Below are positions 54,307 to 64,000 of a stretch of DNA of 64,000 nt, in pieces. Positions within the stretch are counted from its first letter, which is position 1; the number at the start of each line of letters is the position of its first letter. Both the position numbers and the translations under genes were made by a program. A model generated the notes under the pieces. The model was not told the DNA's origin and did no database searches. It saw only the letters and a program-made list of their open reading frames with translations. The stretch lies in the NCBI RefSeq assembly GCF_900105175.1, contig NZ_LT629771.1, positions 558,001-622,000 on the forward strand, written 5' to 3'. This DNA comes from Jiangella sp. DSM 45060. GTDB lineage: Bacteria > Actinomycetota > Actinomycetes > Jiangellales > Jiangellaceae.

Positions 54307-56481
54307 TCAGCGCGTGGCCGTCCGCCCACGGGTGCGGGTCACCAGCATGCCGCCGGCGGCCAGCAGCAGGACCGCCCCGAGCAGCACGCCGGCACCGGGG
54401 CCACCGGTGTCGGGCAGGTCCTCGCCGCTGCCGTCCTCGGCCGCGCCGCCGGCGTCGCCGGACTCGCCCGACGCGTCGCCCGAGGCGTCACCCGACCCGC
54501 CCGAGGCGTCCCCGCCGTCACCCGAGGAGCCGCCGTCGCCCGACGACTCGACGGTGACGGTGACGGAGGCGTCCGAGTCGAGCAGCTCGGGGTCGCCGCC
54601 GTCGCCGGCCGAGGCGGTCGCCGTCAGGGTGTAGTCGCCGGCCGCCAGTTCGGCCGCCGGGGTGAACGTCCAGTCGCCGTCCTCGTCGCGGTCCAGCGCG
54701 CCCTCGACGGCGGCCCGGCCGGCGTCGTCCGTCAACGTCACGTCCAGCTCCGCCGACGGGTACGAGCCGCCGCTGAAGACCTGGCCCGCGTCCCGCGACG
54801 GCTCGTCGATGGTCACGCCCGGCGCCGGGACGCCCAGGTCCGCGACGACGACGTCCTGGTAGTCGAGGCGGACCACCTGGGTGAGCAGCGCGTCGAAGCG
54901 GACGCCGATCGGCAGGTCCGCGTCCGGCGCGACCGACCAGCGGCCGTCGTCGGCGACGATGGCCGAGCCGAGCTCCTCGTCGTCGACGGTGAGGGTGACG
55001 GTGCCGCCGGGCTGGCCCGTCCCGGCGAACTCGACGTCGCCGGTCTGGCCGTCCTCCGGCGACTCCACCGCCAGCGGCGCGACCACCGGTGCCTCGTGCA
55101 GGCACGGGTCGGGCCGGTTGACGGGGGAGAGCTGCCGGTCGATGACGCCGCCGTCCTCGTTGCCGCGGAAGAACAGCCGCTGGACGTCGTCCTCGTCGGT
55201 GTCCCAGGTCCAGAACAGCCAGCCGGTGAGCTCGAACGCGCAGCTCTGGACCTGGTGGTGACGCATCGCCTCGGCGGCGCGGCCGATGTCGTCGCCGTAG
55301 CGGTCGCGCTGGGCGCCGAACTCGCCGTTGATCACGACGCCCTCGACCTGCGGCCACTCGACCGAGTTCAGCGCCTCCTCGAGGGTGTACTGCGGCGTCG
55401 GGTAGGTGTGGATGTCGAAGAAGTCCAGCGCCGACTCGCGGGTCAGCGTCGACACCCGGGCCGGGTAGCGGAAGTCGCCCTCGCAGGCGTCGCCGGCGCA
55501 GTGCGTGGCGAAGCCGTCGTAGCCGGGCTTGCCGACGGCCCGGTTGGTGAACGCGCCCATCGTCACCATGAGGTCGGGGTCCACGTCCTTGGCGGCGGCG
55601 GTGGCCGCGTCGGCGTAGGCGACGATGGTGTCGTCGGCGGCGGCCTGGCGCTGCTCGGGCACGGACATGTCGTAGGCGGTGCCGTCCGGCGCGGTGAAGG
55701 TGCCCGACGCCTGCGCGAACGGCGCCTCGTCGGCGGCGAACGTGGCCTCGTTGTCCAGCTGGAGCGCCAGGAACGTGCTCATCAGGGGGCCGAGCCGGTC
55801 CGTCATCTCGGTGGTGAAGTTGGCGAGGTACGCCTCCTTCGCCGCGACGAAGCCCTCGTACATGTAGTTCGTGTTGCGGCCCGAGACGTTCTCCGGCGGC
55901 GCGCTCTGCGCCACGATGTCGAAGTAGTACGCGTTCTGCGGGAACGCGTCCATCGACGGCAGCACGTACATGCCGTTGGCGGCCGCCCGGCGGACGAAGT
56001 CGGCGAGGTTGTCCAGGTACTCCGGGTTGCCGGTGCTGGTGTCGTCGTCGCCGTGGCCCAGGCCGTGCGGCGTGCCGTTGAGGTTGTCCTGGCCGTGGCC
56101 GGGGTCGACGAACACCCGGACGGTGTTGTAGCCCGCGGCGCTCTGTTCGGCCAGCGCGGCGCCGGCCCGCTCGCCGTCGTACTGTCCCGGCTCGAAGGTC
56201 GAGTGGTAGGGCTCCTCTGGGTTCCACGGCTGCGGCGCCAGGCGGACGTAGTTGTAGCCGCGCGGGATGAACGGCCGGCCGGTCTCGGTGTCGATGAGCT
56301 GACGGTTCTCGCCGGCGGCGATGCGCGGCAGCGGCTCGGCCGGGTCCTCCCGCGTCTCGGCCGCCGACGCGACCAGGCCGCCCAGCAGGCTCGTGACGAG
56401 CGTCAGCGCGGCCACACCGCCCAGCGCAGATCGGCTGCGCAGGCTTTTCCGTATCACGTAGATCTCCAGGATTGTGTTCAC
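54307..56481 (-). CDS. Cell-wall-anchored GH5-like glycoside hydrolase
   Basis: A 724-aa surface protein. A signal peptide spans residues ~10-41. The (beta/alpha)8 catalytic domain (~50-440) is of GH5/mannanase-cellulase type: FIPRGYNYVRL at its start, likely acid/base Glu245 (LQLDNEATF) and nucleophile Glu387 (VVINGEFGA). Two Ig-like beta domains follow (~465-645), then a Ser/Gly/Asp-rich spacer. The sortase signal is LPDTG at 689, followed by a hydrophobic segment and basic tail RTRGRTATR. It is displayed on the cell wall to cut a beta-glycan. It is convergent with the kinase gene and ends next to their shared terminator. Confidence 0.87.
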   Translation of the reverse strand: MNTILEIYVIRKSLRSRSALGGVAALTLVTSLLGGLVASAAETREDPAEPLPRIAAGENRQLIDTETGRPFIPRGYNYVRLAPQPWNPEEPYHSTFEPGQYDGERAGAALAEQSAAGYNTVRVFVDPGHGQDNLNGTPHGLGHGDDDTSTGNPEYLDNLADFVRRAAANGMYVLPSMDAFPQNAYYFDIVAQSAPPENVSGRNTNYMYEGFVAAKEAYLANFTTEMTDRLGPLMSTFLALQLDNEATFAADEAPFAQASGTFTAPDGTAYDMSVPEQRQAAADDTIVAYADAATAAAKDVDPDLMVTMGAFTNRAVGKPGYDGFATHCAGDACEGDFRYPARVSTLTRESALDFFDIHTYPTPQYTLEEALNSVEWPQVEGVVINGEFGAQRDRYGDDIGRAAEAMRHHQVQSCAFELTGWLFWTWDTDEDDVQRLFFRGNEDGGVIDRQLSPVNRPDPCLHEAPVVAPLAVESPEDGQTGDVEFAGTGQPGGTVTLTVDDEELGSAIVADDGRWSVAPDADLPIGVRFDALLTQVVRLDYQDVVVADLGVPAPGVTIDEPSRDAGQVFSGGSYPSAELDVTLTDDAGRAAVEGALDRDEDGDWTFTPAAELAAGDYTLTATASAGDGGDPELLDSDASVTVTVESSGDGGSSGDGGDASGGSGDASGDASGESGDAGGAAEDGSGEDLPDTGGPGAGVLLGAVLLLAAGGMLVTRTRGRTATR

Positions 56482-56614: not shown

Positions 56615-57511
56615 TCAGCCAAGGCCGGGGACCCGGGTCAGCTTGTCCGGATTGCGCACACCGTCGATCGCGGTGATGCGGCCCCCGTCGACGGTGAACG
56701 CCATGACCGTCAGCACGCCGTCGTCGTGGCGGACGGCGACGCCGGGCGCGCCGTTGACGTCGGCGACGTGGACCTCGAACACGGACAACCGGCTGTAGTG
56801 CACCAGCGCGTGCGCGACGCGGTCGGCGCCGTAGAGGATCTTCGGCAGCGTCGAGACCTTGCCGCCGCCGTCGCTGCGCAGGACGACGTCGGGATCGAGC
56901 AGCGCGATCAGCCCGGGGAGGTCGCCCCGGCTGCAGGCGGCCATGAACGCGTCGACCAGCTCGCGCTGCTCGGCGCCGGTGGCCGGGAGCCGCGGCCGGG
57001 TGCCCTCCACGTGCCGGCGAGCCCGCGAGGCCAGCTGCCGCACGGCCGCCGGCGACCGCCCGACCACGTCGGCGACCTCGGGGAAGGGCATGCTGAACAC
57101 GTCGTGCAGGACGAATGCCGTGCGCTCGGCGGGGGAGAGCTGCTCGAGGACCACCAGCAGCGCCATGCTCACCGACTCGTCCAGCGTGACGCGGTCGGCG
57201 GGGTCGAGCTCGCGGGTCTCGACCAGCGGCTCGGGCAGCCACGTCCCGACGTACTGCTCGCGGCGGGCCCGCGCGCTGCCGAGGGCGTCGAGCGCCAGCC
57301 GGCTGACGGTGGTGGTCAGCCAGGCGGCGAGGTCGCGGACGGTGCCGGGGTCGTCGAGCCCGCGCAGCCGCAGCCACGCCTCCTGGACGCAGTCCTCGGC
57401 GTCGGCCAGCGAGCCCGTCATGGTGTAGGCGACCCGCAGCAGCCGCGGCCGGTTCGCCTCGAACGAGCGAGCCAGCTGGTCGTCGGCGTCTCGTGCGTTC
57501 ATCGCTCCCAT
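56615..57511 (-). CDS. ECF41-family RNA polymerase sigma factor
   Basis: 298 aa. Sigma region 2 is at the N-terminus (RVAYTMTGSLADAEDCVQEA) and region 4 follows (LSPAERTAFVLHDVFSMPF, EVADVVGRSPAAVRQLASRA). A SnoaL-like C-terminal domain replaces an anti-sigma factor: DGGGK and NPDKL are the two motifs that define ECF41. The C-terminal domain tunes the activity of the sigma factor. The ATG at 57511 fits a leaderless mRNA from the ECF41 promoter in front; ATG 57502, with GGGAG before it, is an alternative. It is divergent from an MMPL transporter with the same promoter type. Confidence 0.93.
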   Translation of the reverse strand: MGAMNARDADDQLARSFEANRPRLLRVAYTMTGSLADAEDCVQEAWLRLRGLDDPGTVRDLAAWLTTTVSRLALDALGSARARREQYVGTWLPEPLVETRELDPADRVTLDESVSMALLVVLEQLSPAERTAFVLHDVFSMPFPEVADVVGRSPAAVRQLASRARRHVEGTRPRLPATGAEQRELVDAFMAACSRGDLPGLIALLDPDVVLRSDGGGKVSTLPKILYGADRVAHALVHYSRLSVFEVHVADVNGAPGVAVRHDDGVLTVMAFTVDGGRITAIDGVRNPDKLTRVPGLG

Positions 57512-57519
57512 GCCTGGTT

Positions 57520-57579
57520 GACGACACAGCCGTCACCACTGTGACACGTCGATGTCACACCTCGCCGGGCTGCGTCGTC
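57520..57579. promoter_or_regulatory. Back-to-back ECF41 promoters
   Basis: Rightward: TGTCACA (57553-57559), 16 nt, CGTC (57576-57579), seven bases before the GTG of the MMPL gene. Leftward: TGTCACA (complement of 57540-57546), 16 nt, CGTC (complement of 57520-57523), eight bases before the sigma gene ATG. TGTCACA-N16-CGTC is the known ECF41 promoter form. The two -35 elements face away from a shared 20-bp inverted repeat (57540-57559). Confidence 0.85.
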
Positions 57580-57586
57580 ACCACAC

Positions 57587-59767
57587 GTGACCACGCCACA
57601 GTTGAACCGCGAAGAAGAAGCCACGCAGCCACCCGCGCGGTCCGGGGTGTTCGTCCGCATCGCCGGGTTCGCGTACCGCCGCAAGTGGATCGCCCTGATC
57701 CTGTGGGTGGCGGTCCTGATCGGCGTGTGGGGCGTCGCCACCGCCGTGGGCGACGCGTACAAGAACGACACCTCGCTCCCGGGCACGGAGGCACAGGCCG
57801 CCGCCGACCTGCTGAAGGAGCATGGAGCGGAGCGCGCCGGGGACACCATCGACATCGTCCTGCACGACGAGGGCGGGCTGACCGGTGTGCGGGAGCGGGT
57901 CGAGCCGATGCTCGCGGAGGTCGCCGAGCTGCCCAACGTCGGCGACGTCCTGAGCGTCTACGACAACCCGACCGCCGTCTCCGAGGACGGCACCATCGGC
58001 TACGCCACCGTGCAGCTCGAGGTGCCGTCCGACGACATGCCGACCGAGGACACCGAACGCATCCTCGACGTCGCGCAGGCGATCGAGGGCGACGGACTCC
58101 AGGTCGAACTGGGCGGTGACGCCGTCCGGCTGATCGCGGAGGCCGAGACCGGCGTCGGGGAGACGGCCGGCCTGGTGGCCGCGATGGTGATCCTGGTGCT
58201 GATGTTCGGCACGTTCATCGCCGCCGGCCTGCCCATCATGATCGCCCTCTTCGCGGTCGGCTCGACGGTCGGCATCATCGTCCTGGCGTCGCACGTCTTC
58301 ACCATCGCGTCCTGGACGCCGCCGATCATGTTCCTCGTCGGCCTCGGCGTCGGCATCGACTACGCGTTGCTGATCTTCGCCCGCTACCGCGCGGAACTGG
58401 TGCGCGGCGTCGAGCCGGAACGGGCCACCGTCACGGCCATGGACGCCGCGGGCCGCTCGGTGTTCTTCGCCGGCTGCACCGTCATCCTGGCGCTGCTCGG
58501 CCTCACCGCCCTCGGCCTCGGCTCGATCCAGGGCATGGCGCTGTCCGTGGCGCTGACGGTGCTGATGACGATGCTCGCCTCGCTGACGCTGCTGCCCGCG
58601 CTGCTCGGCATCTTCGGCAAGCGCTTCGCCCGCCAGTTCCTCGCGCGGGCCGAGAAGCGCCGGGCCAAGGGCAAGACCGAGGACGGCGACGGCTGGCGCA
58701 AGCTCGCGGCGGCGGTGCAGAAGCGCCCGCTGGCGACGCTGGTGGCGGCGGCGGTGCTGCTCGGCGCGCTCGCCTTCCCGGCGCTGAGCATCCGGCTCGG
58801 CTTCAACGACGCGGGCAACGACCCCAGCGACTCCACCAGCCGGCAGGCCTACGACCTGCTCTCCGACGGCTTCGGCCCCGGGTTCAACGGGCCGCTGCTG
58901 GTCGTGACCGACGGCGGCGCCGGCAGCGCCGACGAGGCCGCCGCCGCGGCGGTGCGGGCGCTGGGCGAGACCGAGGGCGTCGCGGCCACCGCGGACCCGA
59001 TCCCCACGCCGGACGGCGAGGCCGCGACCGTCCTCGTCTACCCCACCACCTCGCCGCAGGACGGGGAGACCACGGAGCTGGTCCGCACCCTGCGCGAGGA
59101 CGTGCTGCCGGGGCTGACGGCGGACAACGGCGCGGAGTACCTCGTGGGCGGGGCCACGGCCGCGTCCGAGGACTACGCGGGCAAGCTCGCCGACCGGATG
59201 CCGCTGTTCATCCTCATCGTCGTGGGGCTCGCGATAGTCCTGCTGATGGCGGTGTTCCGGTCGGTCCTCATCCCGCTGAAGGCCGCGTTCCTGAACCTGC
59301 TCAGCATCGGTGCCGCGCTCGGCGCGATGAAGCTGGTCTTCCAGGACGGCGCGCTCGGCTTCGAGGGCGGGCCGATCGAGGCGTACGTGCCGGTGATGGT
59401 CTTCGCCATCGTCTTCGGCCTCTCGATGGACTACGAGATCTTCCTGATCTCCCGCATGCACGAGGAATGGGTCCGCTCCGGCAAACGGAACCCGGCGCAT
59501 GCCGTGCGGGAGGGCCTGGCCCACACCGGCACCGTGATCACGGCGGCGGGCTCGATCATGATCGTGATCTTCGCGGCCTTCGTTCTCAGCCCGCAACGGC
59601 TGCTGCAACAGGCGGGCCTGGCCTTCGCGGTGGCGATCTTCGTCGACGCGGTCATCATCCGGTGCATGGTGGTGCCGGCGGCGATGCAGCTGATGGGACG
59701 GCGCGCCTGGTGGATGCCGGCGCCACTGGCCCGGCTGCTGCCGAAGGTCGAGCTGGAGCGCACCTGA
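57587..59767 (+). CDS. MMPL/RND-family transporter under ECF41 control
   Basis: A 726-aa membrane protein. TM1 is near residue 30 (WIALILWVAVLIGVWGVATA). Two halves each carry an extracytoplasmic domain and a five-helix bundle. The hallmark motifs are GIDYALLIFARYRAEL and GLSMDYEIFLISRMHEEW. It is of normal length, unlike the longer homologue at 2759. The start GTG is at 57587, seven bases after the -10 motif, so the mRNA is probably leaderless. It likely exports a lipid or toxic compound in response to the signal sensed through ECF41. Confidence 0.92.
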   Translation: MTTPQLNREEEATQPPARSGVFVRIAGFAYRRKWIALILWVAVLIGVWGVATAVGDAYKNDTSLPGTEAQAAADLLKEHGAERAGDTIDIVLHDEGGLTGVRERVEPMLAEVAELPNVGDVLSVYDNPTAVSEDGTIGYATVQLEVPSDDMPTEDTERILDVAQAIEGDGLQVELGGDAVRLIAEAETGVGETAGLVAAMVILVLMFGTFIAAGLPIMIALFAVGSTVGIIVLASHVFTIASWTPPIMFLVGLGVGIDYALLIFARYRAELVRGVEPERATVTAMDAAGRSVFFAGCTVILALLGLTALGLGSIQGMALSVALTVLMTMLASLTLLPALLGIFGKRFARQFLARAEKRRAKGKTEDGDGWRKLAAAVQKRPLATLVAAAVLLGALAFPALSIRLGFNDAGNDPSDSTSRQAYDLLSDGFGPGFNGPLLVVTDGGAGSADEAAAAAVRALGETEGVAATADPIPTPDGEAATVLVYPTTSPQDGETTELVRTLREDVLPGLTADNGAEYLVGGATAASEDYAGKLADRMPLFILIVVGLAIVLLMAVFRSVLIPLKAAFLNLLSIGAALGAMKLVFQDGALGFEGGPIEAYVPVMVFAIVFGLSMDYEIFLISRMHEEWVRSGKRNPAHAVREGLAHTGTVITAAGSIMIVIFAAFVLSPQRLLQQAGLAFAVAIFVDAVIIRCMVVPAAMQLMGRRAWWMPAPLARLLPKVELERT

Positions 59768-60087: not shown

Positions 60088-60729
60088 TCAGGGCTGCAGC
60101 CGGCCGGCCGTCCACTCGGCGTCGTGGGCGGGGCGGGTGTAGCGCAGCCGGCGGTGCAGCCGGGTCGGGCTGCCGTACCAGAACTCCACCTCGCGCGGCA
60201 CCAGCCGGTACGCCGTCCAGGCGTCGGGCCGGGGGATCGGCCGGGCCGACGCGAGCAGGGCGCGGGCCCGAGCGTGCAGGTCGGCTTCGTCGGCCAGCGG
60301 CGCGCTCTGCCGCGACACCGCGCTGGCGGCCTGGGCGTCGCGGGGACGCTCGGCGAACAGCTGGTCGGCCAGCTCCGCGGGCAGCCGCTCGACCTCGCCG
60401 GCGGCGGTGACCTGCTGCAGCGTCTCGCGCCAGTAGAAGGTGACCGACGCCCAGGGTTGGTGGGCGAGGTGGCGGCCCTTGCGGCCGTCGGCGGCGCTGG
60501 TGAAGACGAGCCCGCGGTCGTCGACCTCCTTGAGCAGCAGTACCCGGCTGGACGGGCGGCCCGCCTCGTCGGCCGTCGCCAGCACGACGGCCGCCGGCTC
60601 GCGCACCCCGTGCTCGGCGGCGGCCGCCAGCCAGGACCGCAGCAGGCCCAGCGGCTCGGCCGGCGGGTGGTCGAACTCGGGCAGCTCGAGGTCCGTCGCG
60701 CCGCTGAGGGTCTGGGTCCGATCCGTCAC
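60088..60729 (-). CDS. pdxH: Pyridoxamine 5'-phosphate oxidase family (PdxH-like)
   Basis: A 213-aa FMN enzyme of vitamin B6 metabolism, oxidising pyridoxine or pyridoxamine 5'-phosphate to PLP. FMN and substrate motifs: PSSRVLLLKEVDDRGLVF, TSAADGRKGRHLAHQPWASV, FYWRETLQQV and the C-terminal EVEFWYGSPTRLHRRLRY. The usual C-terminal RLAP is RLQP here. Its start lies 10 bp after the ABC permease stop, so it could be co-transcribed with the importer. A PhzG-like relative acting on another substrate is less likely but possible. Confidence 0.85.
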   Translation of the reverse strand: MTDRTQTLSGATDLELPEFDHPPAEPLGLLRSWLAAAAEHGVREPAAVVLATADEAGRPSSRVLLLKEVDDRGLVFTSAADGRKGRHLAHQPWASVTFYWRETLQQVTAAGEVERLPAELADQLFAERPRDAQAASAVSRQSAPLADEADLHARARALLASARPIPRPDAWTAYRLVPREVEFWYGSPTRLHRRLRYTRPAHDAEWTAGRLQP

Positions 60730-61797: not shown

Positions 61798-62858
61798 GCG
61801 GCGACGGCCTCCTTCTGCGACTGCGCCCGGAGGGCACGGCGGTGCCGGAACAGCGACCGGACGCGCTCGGACTGCAGCAGGCAGAGCACGACGATCACGA
61901 TGGCCTTGAACGCGGGCGTGGCCGAGGCCGGGATGCCGAGGAACACGACGGTCTTGTCGAGGGTCGCGATCAGCAGCCCGCCGATCACGGCGCCGCCGAT
62001 GGAGAACTTGCCGCCGGCCAGCGACGTCCCGCCTATGACGACGGCGAGGATCGCGTCCAGTTCCAGCTGGTAGCCGGTGCGCGACACGTCCACCGTCATG
62101 ACGCTGGCGGTCGCGAACACGCCGGCGATGCCGGCCAGCAGCCCGCTCGCCGAGTAGACGGTCAGCAGCAGGGTGCGCCGCTTGACGCCGGCGAGCCGGC
62201 TGGCCCGCGAGTCCATCCCGATCGCCTCCAGCATGAGGCCGAGCGCGCTGCGCCGCACCAGCAGCCACACCAGCGCGACGATCGCCATGGCCAGCAGGAA
62301 CACCACCGGGATCCCGACGACGTAGCCGTTGGCCAGCCACGCGAACGAATCGTTGTCGGCGGTGGTGTTCTGCCCGCCGGTGATGACCTTCGCGATGCCG
62401 CGTCCGGCCAGCATCATCACCAGCGTGCTGATGAACGGCTGCAGCCCGACGACGGAGACGAGGACGCCGTTCACGGCGCCCAGCACGGTCGCGATGCCGA
62501 GCGCGACGGCCAGCGTCACCGCCGCGTTGCCGGCCGTGCCGTCCATGCCGCTCAGCAGTTCCATCGACACCGCGCCGGCGACGACCATGATCGAGCCGAC
62601 GGACAGGTCGATGCCGCTGGTGGCGACGACGAGGCACATGCCGACGGCGATCATCAGGATCGGCGCGGCCGCGCGCAGGATGTCGATGAGGTTGCCGGAC
62701 AGCCGCCCGGTCTCGTCGTTGTAGCCGATGGAGAGATAGCTCGGGTCCTTGGCGACGTTGATCGCCAGCAGCGCCACGATCGCGATGACGCCCCAGAACG
62801 CCTGGTTGCGCACGATCGCCCCGCGCCCGGCGGCCAGCCGCGCGGCCACGTCCCTCAT
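61794..62858 (-). CDS. Sugar ABC permease (YtfT/RbsC-like)
   Basis: 354 aa, a paralogue of the next gene's product. Conserved segments are CLVVATSGIDLSVGSIMVVA, GLQPFISTLVMMLAGRGIAK and GGTSLAGGKFSIGGAVIGGL. It starts at an ATGA overlap with the ATPase gene and overlaps the second permease the same way, so all three are coupled. Confidence 0.9.
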   Translation of the reverse strand: MRDVAARLAAGRGAIVRNQAFWGVIAIVALLAINVAKDPSYLSIGYNDETGRLSGNLIDILRAAAPILMIAVGMCLVVATSGIDLSVGSIMVVAGAVSMELLSGMDGTAGNAAVTLAVALGIATVLGAVNGVLVSVVGLQPFISTLVMMLAGRGIAKVITGGQNTTADNDSFAWLANGYVVGIPVVFLLAMAIVALVWLLVRRSALGLMLEAIGMDSRASRLAGVKRRTLLLTVYSASGLLAGIAGVFATASVMTVDVSRTGYQLELDAILAVVIGGTSLAGGKFSIGGAVIGGLLIATLDKTVVFLGIPASATPAFKAIVIVVLCLLQSERVRSLFRHRRALRAQSQKEAVAA

Positions 62859-64000
62859 GCGGAGTCACCTTCCTCGTCGTCGCCCTCGTCGGCGATGACG
62901 GCGACGATGGTCTCCGCCGTCACGTGCGGGCCGTTCTCCAGCTCGGCGAGCTTGCGGTGGTCCTTCATGACGATGATGCGATCGCTGAGCCGGACCACCT
63001 CCTCGAGCTCGGAGGAGATGAACACGACGGCCACGCCCTTGGCGGCCAGCGCGGCGACGGCGGCCTGGATCTCCGCCTTGGCGCCGACGTCGATGCCGCG
63101 GGTGGGCTCGTCGAGGATGAGCAGGTCCGGCTCGGTCGCCAGCCACCGCCCGAGCAGCACCTTCTGCTGGTTGCCGCCGGACAGGAACTTGATCGGCCGC
63201 TCCGGGTCGGCCGGCTTGACGTTCAGCTCGGCCAGGTACTTGCGGGTGAGCGCGTCCTGCTCCTTGCGCGACAGCGGCCGGAACCAGCCGCGCTTGGCCT
63301 GGACGGCGAGCACCAGGTTCTCGCGGACGGTGAGGTCGCGGATGATGCCTTCGTCGCGCCGGTTCTCGCTGGAGAACGCGATGCGGTGGGCGAGCGCGGC
63401 GGTCGGCGTGTGGATGTCGGTCTTCTTGCCGCGCAGCCACACCGTCCCGCTGTCCGGCCGGTCGGCGCCGTAGAGCAGCCGGGCCAGCTCGGTCCGGCCG
63501 GAGCCGAGCAGCCCGGCCAGGCCCAGCACCTCGCCCTGGTGCAGTTCCAGGTCGGTCGGCTCGGACGAGCCCTTGCGGCCGAGGTTCTCGGCCTTGAGCA
63601 GGGGCTCGCCGCGCGGCTCGTAGTGGTGTGTCGCCCGTTCGCTGCCCAGCGAGCGCAGCGTCGCGAAATCCTTGCCGATCATCTTCGAGATCAGCGTCGT
63701 GCGGTCCAGCTCACGAGTCGGGTACTCGCCGACGAAGCCGCCGTTGCGCAGGACGGTGATGCGGTCGCTGATCGCGTAGACCTGGTCGAGGAAGTGCGTG
63801 ACGAACAGGATCGCGACGCCCTGGTCGCGCAGCTTGCGGATGACCGTGAAGAGGCTGGCCACCTCGTTGGCGTCCAGGCTGGAGGTGGGCTCGTCGAGGA
63901 TGAGCACCTTCGGCTTGGTCACCATGGCCCGGCTGATCGCGACCAGCTGCTGGACCGCCAGCGAGAGCGTGCCGAGCGGGCGGCGCAGGTCCAGCTGGTC
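62855..64000 (-). CDS. Sugar ABC importer ATP-binding protein (3' part)
   Basis: The frame is open to the window edge, so the start lies beyond 64000 and about 381 C-terminal residues are visible. This is a double-ABC protein of the RbsA/MglA/YtfR type. The first domain shows LSLAVQQLVAISRAMVTKP and Walker B VLILDEPTSSLD. The second shows GLAGLLGSGRTELARLLYG as its Walker A and LSGGNQQKVLLGRWLATEP with LLILDEPTRGIDVG. It powers the two permeases encoded after it. The binding-protein gene, if present, should lie outside the window. Confidence 0.93.
   Translation of the reverse strand, partial: DQLDLRRPLGTLSLAVQQLVAISRAMVTKPKVLILDEPTSSLDANEVASLFTVIRKLRDQGVAILFVTHFLDQVYAISDRITVLRNGGFVGEYPTRELDRTTLISKMIGKDFATLRSLGSERATHHYEPRGEPLLKAENLGRKGSSEPTDLELHQGEVLGLAGLLGSGRTELARLLYGADRPDSGTVWLRGKKTDIHTPTAALAHRIAFSSENRRDEGIIRDLTVRENLVLAVQAKRGWFRPLSRKEQDALTRKYLAELNVKPADPERPIKFLSGGNQQKVLLGRWLATEPDLLILDEPTRGIDVGAKAEIQAAVAALAAKGVAVVFISSELEEVVRLSDRIIVMKDHRKLAELENGPHVTAETIVAVIADEGDDEEGDSA

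Follow-up and report, generated by a model that had tools for sequence, protein, structure and literature searches.

A divergent ECF41 sigma factor and MMPL transporter gene pair with mirror-image ECF41-type promoters in Jiangella and other actinobacteria

The 64-kb stretch of Jiangella DNA analysed here (the window) holds a divergent pair of genes, one for an ECF41 sigma factor and one for an MMPL transporter, with an exact ECF41-type promoter in front of each. Comparison with sequences from other actinobacteria establishes the pairing, the promoters, a fixed distance from promoter to sigma start codon and the common descent of the pair, and by this comparison the ECF41-MMPL unit is a real conserved module. 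We read it as a two-gene divergent unit in which the ECF41 factor would drive both its own gene and the MMPL gene, with its SnoaL_2-like domain serving as ligand sensor; the probability that we attach to this reading is roughly 0.7.

The gene pair and its promoters

The features to which the text refers, in window coordinates, are:

56615..57511, minus strand: ECF41 sigma factor gene, 298 aa, ATG at 57511 (NF007214, Pfam and 5xe7 matches; start place shared with relatives)
56681..56956, minus strand: C-terminal SnoaL_2/NTF2-like extension, residues 186-277, presumed regulatory domain (PF12680 and model fold matches)
57227..57241, minus strand: WLPEP linker motif, residues 91-95, between sigma2 and sigma4 (YVGTWLPEPL in the window protein)
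57511, minus strand: predicted sigma transcription start at the A of ATG, leaderless (9th base past CGTC, by analogy with the S. meliloti spacing)
57520..57546, minus strand: ECF41 promoter of the sigma gene (-35 TGTCACA 57546-57540, -10 CGTC 57523-57520; at most one mismatch in 17 of 20 divergent pairs)
57540..57559, no strand: inverted repeat from both -35 boxes, 6 bp apart (TGTGACA-N6-TGTCACA)
57553..57579, plus strand: ECF41 promoter of the MMPL gene (-35 TGTCACA 57553-57559, -10 CGTC 57576-57579; at most one mismatch in 20 of 20 divergent pairs)
57587, plus strand: predicted MMPL transcription start at the G of GTG, within 1 nt, leaderless in this species (8th base past CGTC, by analogy, assuming the same spacing)
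57587..59767, plus strand: MMPL transporter gene, 726 aa (PF03176, E 3e-90; MmpL3 structures, E 1e-62)

A gap of 75 bp separates the ECF41 gene (minus, 57511-56615) from the MMPL gene (plus, 57587-59767), and each of its strands carries one exact copy of TGTCACA-N16-CGTC (minus 57546-57520; plus 57553-57579), the promoter form known for ECF41. The initial annotation had reported this form with equal spacing on both strands, its -35 boxes back to back in a 20-bp inverted repeat and its -10 boxes 7-8 bases from the start codons, and had assigned matched ECF41 promoters to the two genes. All of this was borne out, with the repeat at 57540-57559 and CGTC ending 8 nt before the sigma start and 7 nt before the MMPL start. 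The repeat consists of two 7-bp arms; symmetry is absent from its central 6 bp. That motifs and neighbourhood are mere chance in a GC-rich genome has practically no probability: some core motif matches elsewhere (5408486, 6795227, 2758526) may be chance, but the whole window has two matches against 0.05 expected, and 100,000 dinucleotide shuffles of the 75-bp gap gave 192 with any match and none with a match on both strands, so that chance is excluded for the promoter pair; conservation in 20 pairs (below) refutes a chance origin.

The sigma factor scores 350.9 bits against NCBIfam NF007214 (SigJ; cut-off 271). As expected of ECF41, its core has only the sigma2 and sigma4 domains (Pfam Sigma70_r2, 58 bits; Sigma70_r4_2, 50.8 bits) and is followed by a SnoaL-like (NTF2-like) C-terminal extension of about 100 aa (residues 186-277); PF12680 (SnoaL_2) matches this extension with E 1.9e-5 and 25.6 bits, slightly below its gathering score of 27. 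The closest solved relative is Mycobacterium tuberculosis SigJ (PDB 5xe7; phmmer E 2e-58), and the AlphaFold model finds its best fold matches in the same SigJ (TM 0.66-0.69) and in S. tsukubaensis SigG1. We know of no MMPL partner for sigJ. The model has a mean pLDDT of 75.6 and a middling pTM of 0.53, so its domain arrangement is unsure. Further fold matches on the extension are to ketosteroid isomerases, an LEH-like epoxide hydrolase and designed proteins sharing that fold; the natural ones among them are enzymes whose pockets take hydrophobic small molecules. The linker contains WLPEP, described as an ECF41 hallmark (PMC3426412), and the C-terminal region contains RNPDKL, which includes the NPDKL motif of ECF41 named in PMC7730460. 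SigJ-likeness, the two motifs and the SnoaL_2-like extension together support the earlier assignment of this gene product to ECF41.

No anti-sigma gene lies beside the sigma gene, whose neighbours are the MMPL gene and a GH5-like gene. The latter (54307-56481, downstream of the sigma gene) encodes a protein with a bacterial Ig-like domain and, by eye, a C-terminal LPDTG motif. The COE partner that is typical of ECF41 is missing, its place being taken by the MMPL gene; about 30% of ECF41 genes are described as having no COE partner (PMC3426412).

The MMPL protein is covered by PF03176 in two stretches (303 bits), as expected of a two-repeat transporter, and its nearest solved relatives are MmpL3 structures. 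In MMPL proteins (RND superfamily) paired Asp-Tyr residues in two transmembrane helices belong to the proton path; here D258-Y259 and D615-Y616 align with the DY pairs of MmpL3 and are invariant in 14 aligned sequences. The protein is not a member of the MmpL3 equivalog family (NF052608), scoring 233 bits against a cut-off of 1400.

Relatives of the MMPL were sought with two candidates scored per genome, which gave 44 matches, and the vicinity was inspected for ECF41 genes in 31 of these (30 loci with flanks of about 1.5 kb, nine also in longer stretches, and the paralog of the own genome in L170). Six had a divergent ECF41 gene and 24 had none nearby; in the remaining one, the own-genome paralog, an ECF41-like gene lies beyond a TetR-like gene. 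This second ECF41-MMPL pair of the same genome (MMPL 3155709-3157859; ECF41-like 3158678-3159514) was rejected as a further copy of the unit: the intervening TetR-like gene (by eye) stands divergent to this second MMPL, and the closest motif has two mismatches. Within L170:1162-5422, a glyoxalase-domain gene and the ECF41-like gene stand in tandem beside the TetR-like gene that is divergent to the second MMPL, with no exact ECF41 motif.

Conservation and descent of the pair

Species genomes were scanned for relatives of the sigma factor and the best 80 of 109 were kept; the scan seeks close peptide patterns and therefore favours close relatives, the nearest named ones being Jiangella species (93% for J. 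muralis). Among these best 80 of 109, 17 have a divergent MMPL gene and 3 a tandem one. With the window and two further genomes of the genus, the divergent pairs number 20 (6 Jiangella, 10 Actinomadura, 1 Actinophytocola, 3 Streptomyces), a count that leaves out L016 and the three tandem loci. The MMPL-side promoter is present in all 20 (16 exact, 4 with C for T at the first base) and the sigma-side promoter in 17 (16 exact, one with one mismatch). The initial annotation had proposed searching related genomes for such pairs, and had set beforehand, as a test, that close relatives with the gene pair should also keep the motif; the search yielded the pairs, and the motif passed on both sides to the extent just given. 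In the three Streptomyces pairs the sigma-side promoter is degenerate (15-bp spacer, 1-2 mismatches), and autoregulation is therefore not universal. The constant presence of the MMPL-side promoter argues that the transporter is the genuine target.

Among 22 genomes of the family, the double promoter occurs in 6 of the 12 of the genus (own included) and in none of the 10 others. Back-to-back ECF41 promoters were found in 13 of 393 genomes of the class, six of them being the ECF41-MMPL module, by a search that allowed gaps of 5-35 bp and would miss a pair like that of L021 (47 bp). The seven double-promoter loci outside Jiangella include six with an ECF41-like gene opposite a CMD-, SDR-, NmrA- or DoxX-like gene (partners assigned by eye, two checked by Pfam); these six resemble the module in being divergent but differ in that the partner is not an MMPL and the -35 boxes are 24-34 bp apart. 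At L133, back-to-back ECF41 promoters stand between NmrA-like and pyridine-nucleotide-oxidoreductase-like genes, and by eye neither neighbour is an ECF41 gene. A survey of 15 genomes around G298, meant for Actinomadura but not necessarily of that genus, gave 0 of 15 matches at E <= 1e-100 and carries no weight.

In the 14 of 20 pairs compared, with ORFs filtered by codon-position GC, no third gene was shared by more than three loci. The one cross-genus ORF group (window, L010, L024) is an ABC-type ATPase (62855-63925 in the window), which in L024 flanks the pair on the opposite side. In the window, a PNPOx-like gene (60088-60729) scores above the cut-off for PhzG, a phenazine biosynthesis oxidase (288.9 against 270 bits).

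Trees were made from 71 sigma proteins (L063-L088 and one paralog, 2743838, left out) and 41 MMPLs (L156, L158-L162 and L164 left out). The divergent sigma factors together with that of L016 form one clade (support 100/99) and the divergent MMPLs form another (100/100). Neighbours of the divergent sigma clade include NmrA/epimerase-linked ECF41 genes and three tandem ECF41-MMPL loci. In these tandem loci, in Actinomadura (L031-L033), the two genes are true neighbours and the sigma gene is preceded by an ECF41-like promoter; they were rejected as members of the divergent module because their sigma factors fall in the sister clade. Sigma and MMPL distances are correlated (Mantel r 0.52, as high in 0 of 2000 permutations), and the two trees agree in part only: three Streptomyces loci (L017, L019, L026) are mosaic, with the MMPL nested in Jiangella and the sigma factor among Actinomadura. 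The simplest reading of these trees is that the pair was transferred as a unit, with some later recombination. In L016 (4000-4840), an exact ECF41 promoter is followed by SnoaL-like and DoxX-like genes where the MMPL gene would otherwise stand, and the promoters between the sigma gene and the SnoaL-like gene are of the module type.

Start-codon distance and promoter spacing

The initial annotation took both genes to be leaderless. For the sigma gene this geometry holds well beyond the window: the start codon lies exactly 8 nt past CGTC in all 17 pairs with a good sigma-side promoter (14 ATG, 3 GTG). The transcription start mapped for ECF41 in S. meliloti is 9 nt downstream of the motif (PMC3616915), and by this spacing +1 would fall on the A of the sigma ATG. 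A second in-frame ATG at 57502 directly follows GGGAG, so a short leader on the window's sigma mRNA is possible; the position 8 nt past CGTC is common to all 17 pairs, unlike the 57502 ATG. For the MMPL gene the claim stands within a narrower circle, a start codon 7-8 nt past the promoter being confined to five Jiangella pairs (window, L009, L010, L127, L128). The other 15, J. asiatica included, have a leader of 37-200 nt to the likely MMPL start, mostly with an AG-rich stretch before the ATG; a few of them have a nearer in-frame start codon, e.g., at 12 nt in L025 and 27 nt in L011. The leaderless MMPL arrangement appears to be derived, one Jiangella subclade having lost the leader.

The 8-nt distance was counted for 52 distinct actinobacterial promoters in the L009-L088 loci, with promoters truncated by the end of a locus or sharing the same 40 nt downstream removed, and with ATG or GTG accepted without a frame check: 32 have ATG or GTG at offset 8, and any other offset from 0 to 40 has at most five. 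An ORF of at least 100 aa is opened by 28 of the 32. Outside the 20 pairs an offset-8 start codon occurs in 15 of 20 such promoters, versus 1 of 17 in other phyla; as judged from these counts, the leaderless geometry therefore belongs to this actinobacterial branch of ECF41 and is not peculiar to the MMPL pair. A start-codon distance so fixed offers a sharp and cheap test of leaderless transcription from actinobacterial ECF41 promoters.

The tight inverted repeat fared as the MMPL leader did: it is present in the window, and its 6-bp gap between -35 boxes is found only in the same five Jiangella pairs, the 12 others with two good promoters having gaps of 11-47 bp. With the gap so variable, the repeat is no conserved element. 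Within each promoter the 16-bp spacer is fixed while the distance between promoters ranges from 6 to 47 bp. These distances bear on whether TGTGACA-N6-TGTCACA might instead be an operator for a dimeric regulator of the CRP/FNR or TetR kind, its likeness to -35 boxes being incidental. A 20-bp region with 7-bp inverted arms midway between divergent genes would suit an operator, and the related MMPL of the same genome does have a divergent TetR-like gene (by eye). An operator would keep its spacing, however, and the distance between half-sites varies (6, 11, 12, 13, 20, 23, 24, 47 bp), whereas that from each half-site to its own CGTC is a constant 16 bp (17 of 20 pairs on the sigma side, 20 of 20 on the MMPL side). 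A CRP site has the form TGTGA-N6-TCACA, which is unmatched here, the corresponding interval being N10. The operator is thus very unlikely and close to refuted, and we keep to the reading of two ECF41 promoters. Their predicted starts in the window are 76 bp apart, and it is doubtful that two polymerases could be bound at once on the form with the 6-bp gap.

Proposed regulation and related systems

We examined if the promoters are particular to this pair within the genome. The core motif has 9 exact matches in the own genome versus 1 for a reversed control, and 63 versus 34 when one mismatch is allowed. By eye, two of the nine are those of the module, two lie before ECF41 paralogs, and one before an epimerase-like gene that is divergent to an ECF41 paralog. 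Another (7352689-7352715; L104) precedes a lone SnoaL_3-domain gene (146 aa, 48 nt to the ATG), which on this sequence evidence is a possible extra target of an ECF41 factor. The last three lie, by eye, before FAD-oxidoreductase-like, J-domain-like and glutamate-dehydrogenase-like genes, and may be chance. Both module promoters share further bases around the -10 box, with the consensus GGCTGCGTCGTCAAC; spacer positions 10 and 11 are G and C in 17 of 17 sigma-side promoters and in 20 and 19, respectively, of the 20 MMPL-side promoters. The longer form TGTCACA-N8-GGCTGCGTCGTCAAC, which was derived from these sites and related ones, matches only the two module sites in the 7.49-Mb genome when up to three mismatches are allowed (control 0), and the SnoaL-like gene at 7352689 has no match to it. 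In five other genomes of four genera TGTCACA-N14-GTCGTC has 11 sites, nine of them the module's own (control 0).

The own genome encodes 16 ECF41-like proteins, the window's included (E <= 1e-48), and a motif with no more than one mismatch lies within 1 kb of seven of the other 15 genes; among the aligned paralogs, 9 of 14 have W(L/I/F)PEP. The recognition-helix sequences of the paralogous factors look similar (by eye), and with motifs near their genes as well, another sigma factor could drive the module promoters. The promoters might then be of the real ECF41 type but be driven mainly by other ECF41-like factors, the unit being part of a shared network, for which the number of such genes, the motifs beside seven of them and the alike helices all speak. 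We consider this unlikely: the longer motif is matched in the own genome by the two module promoters only, the module likewise accounts for 9 of the 11 sites in the five other genomes, and relatives from four families have kept the sigma gene linked to the MMPL gene. The earlier description of the MMPL as the sole target, in a self-contained unit, was nonetheless overstated, since it rests on motif searches in a genome with 16 ECF41-like genes, 7 of the 15 others with a nearby motif; a self-contained ECF41-MMPL unit is plausible. So many ECF41-like genes in one genome, seven of the paralogs with near-exact motifs, raise the matter of cross-talk versus insulation.

In the reading that we prefer, the ECF41 factor would transcribe its own gene and the MMPL gene from the two matched promoters, giving positive autoregulation plus one main structural target, the MMPL, and in the window both mRNAs would be leaderless. 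The fused SnoaL_2-like domain would substitute for an anti-sigma factor: it would most likely bind a small cytoplasmic molecule, probably a hydrophobic one, and so free the sigma factor, which would turn on the exporter; the molecule would be removed and the switch reset. We infer in this scheme the direct recognition of the promoters by this sigma factor, the sensing of a ligand, the identity of ligand and cargo, the feedback and the leaderless mRNAs. Work on SigJ suggests that its extension may aid promoter binding, besides inhibiting (PMC7730460). A bolder form of the scheme, which we hold tentatively and rate as rather improbable, would make the sigma factor a one-protein chemical sensor for an efflux pump and have the SnoaL_2-like domain bind the very cargo of the MMPL, in a two-gene loop of sensing, RNA polymerase recruitment and export that is mobile between actinobacterial families; in Jiangella the promoters would be so close that one polymerase binds at a time, with expression of sigma factor and pump competing.

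It is possible, if not the outcome we would expect, that the sigma factor answers some other cue (envelope or redox stress) and that the MMPL, like MmpL3, deals with a lipid or a component of the envelope, with no feedback loop. The closest MMPL structures are indeed those of MmpL3, the trehalose monomycolate exporter, and ECF41 partners elsewhere are described as redox-type enzymes (PMC3426412). Against it, no gene of any kind recurs next to the pair in most of the 14 loci that were compared, and the MMPL falls far below the MmpL3 equivalog cut-off (233 versus 1400 bits).

In terms of known systems, the unit that we propose, with an ECF41 factor driving itself and a transporter, is nearest to ecf41-ydfG of B. 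licheniformis and RSP_0606-RSP_0607 of R. sphaeroides (PMC3426412), which also have a fused C-terminal domain, one neighbouring target, no anti-sigma gene, a TGTCACA -35 box and a CGTC or TGTT -10 box; their target, however, is a carboxymuconolactone decarboxylase with a 22/23-nt leader, whereas the neighbour here encodes an MMPL and has leaderless geometry. PMC3426412 describes the ECF41 promoter and divergent loci that often have both promoters, so mirror-image ECF41 promoters before both genes are, going by its Table 4, already known with other genes (divergent <ECF41< >COE> loci, 55/373). As partners the paper gives carboxymuconolactone decarboxylases, oxidoreductases or epimerases, and it describes Bacillus subtilis as having no ECF41 factor. 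The ECF41-MMPL pairing was not found in the literature searched, a search incomplete for key papers, which makes priority uncertain; within that scope the initial view of the MMPL as an unusual partner is supported, and the transporter looks like a new partner for a known ECF41 class. The authors of PMC3426412 state that no inducing condition for ECF41-dependent expression is known, and the substrates of the redox-type partners are unclear, which makes a transporter partner useful: with an assayable cargo, it offers a direct route to the signal of the fused SnoaL_2-like domain.

The actinobacterial MMPL genes linked to CrtR (PMC5401885) are similar in that a regulator gene is divergent to a putative MMPL efflux gene or to an operon that contains one; they differ in that the regulator is a MarR-type repressor in a carotenoid gene context, its regulation being called isoprenoid pyrophosphate-dependent in the title of that paper. 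A further group is made up of related MMPLs (50-66% identity) whose genes have a regulator gene next to them or at most a few kb away (L172, L174-L179, L170); unlike the unit described here, the regulator is a HisKA_3 kinase/LuxR-type response regulator, PadR or TetR, and there is no sigma factor (identified by Pfam for L172, L174 and L176-L179, by eye for the L170 TetR and for L175). The MMPL relatives of L172, L174, L176, L178 and L179 have HisKA_3 kinase and/or LuxR-type response regulator genes in their vicinity, and one related MMPL lies near a PadR gene; with several relatives so placed, this kind of exporter seems to be coupled to varied regulators.
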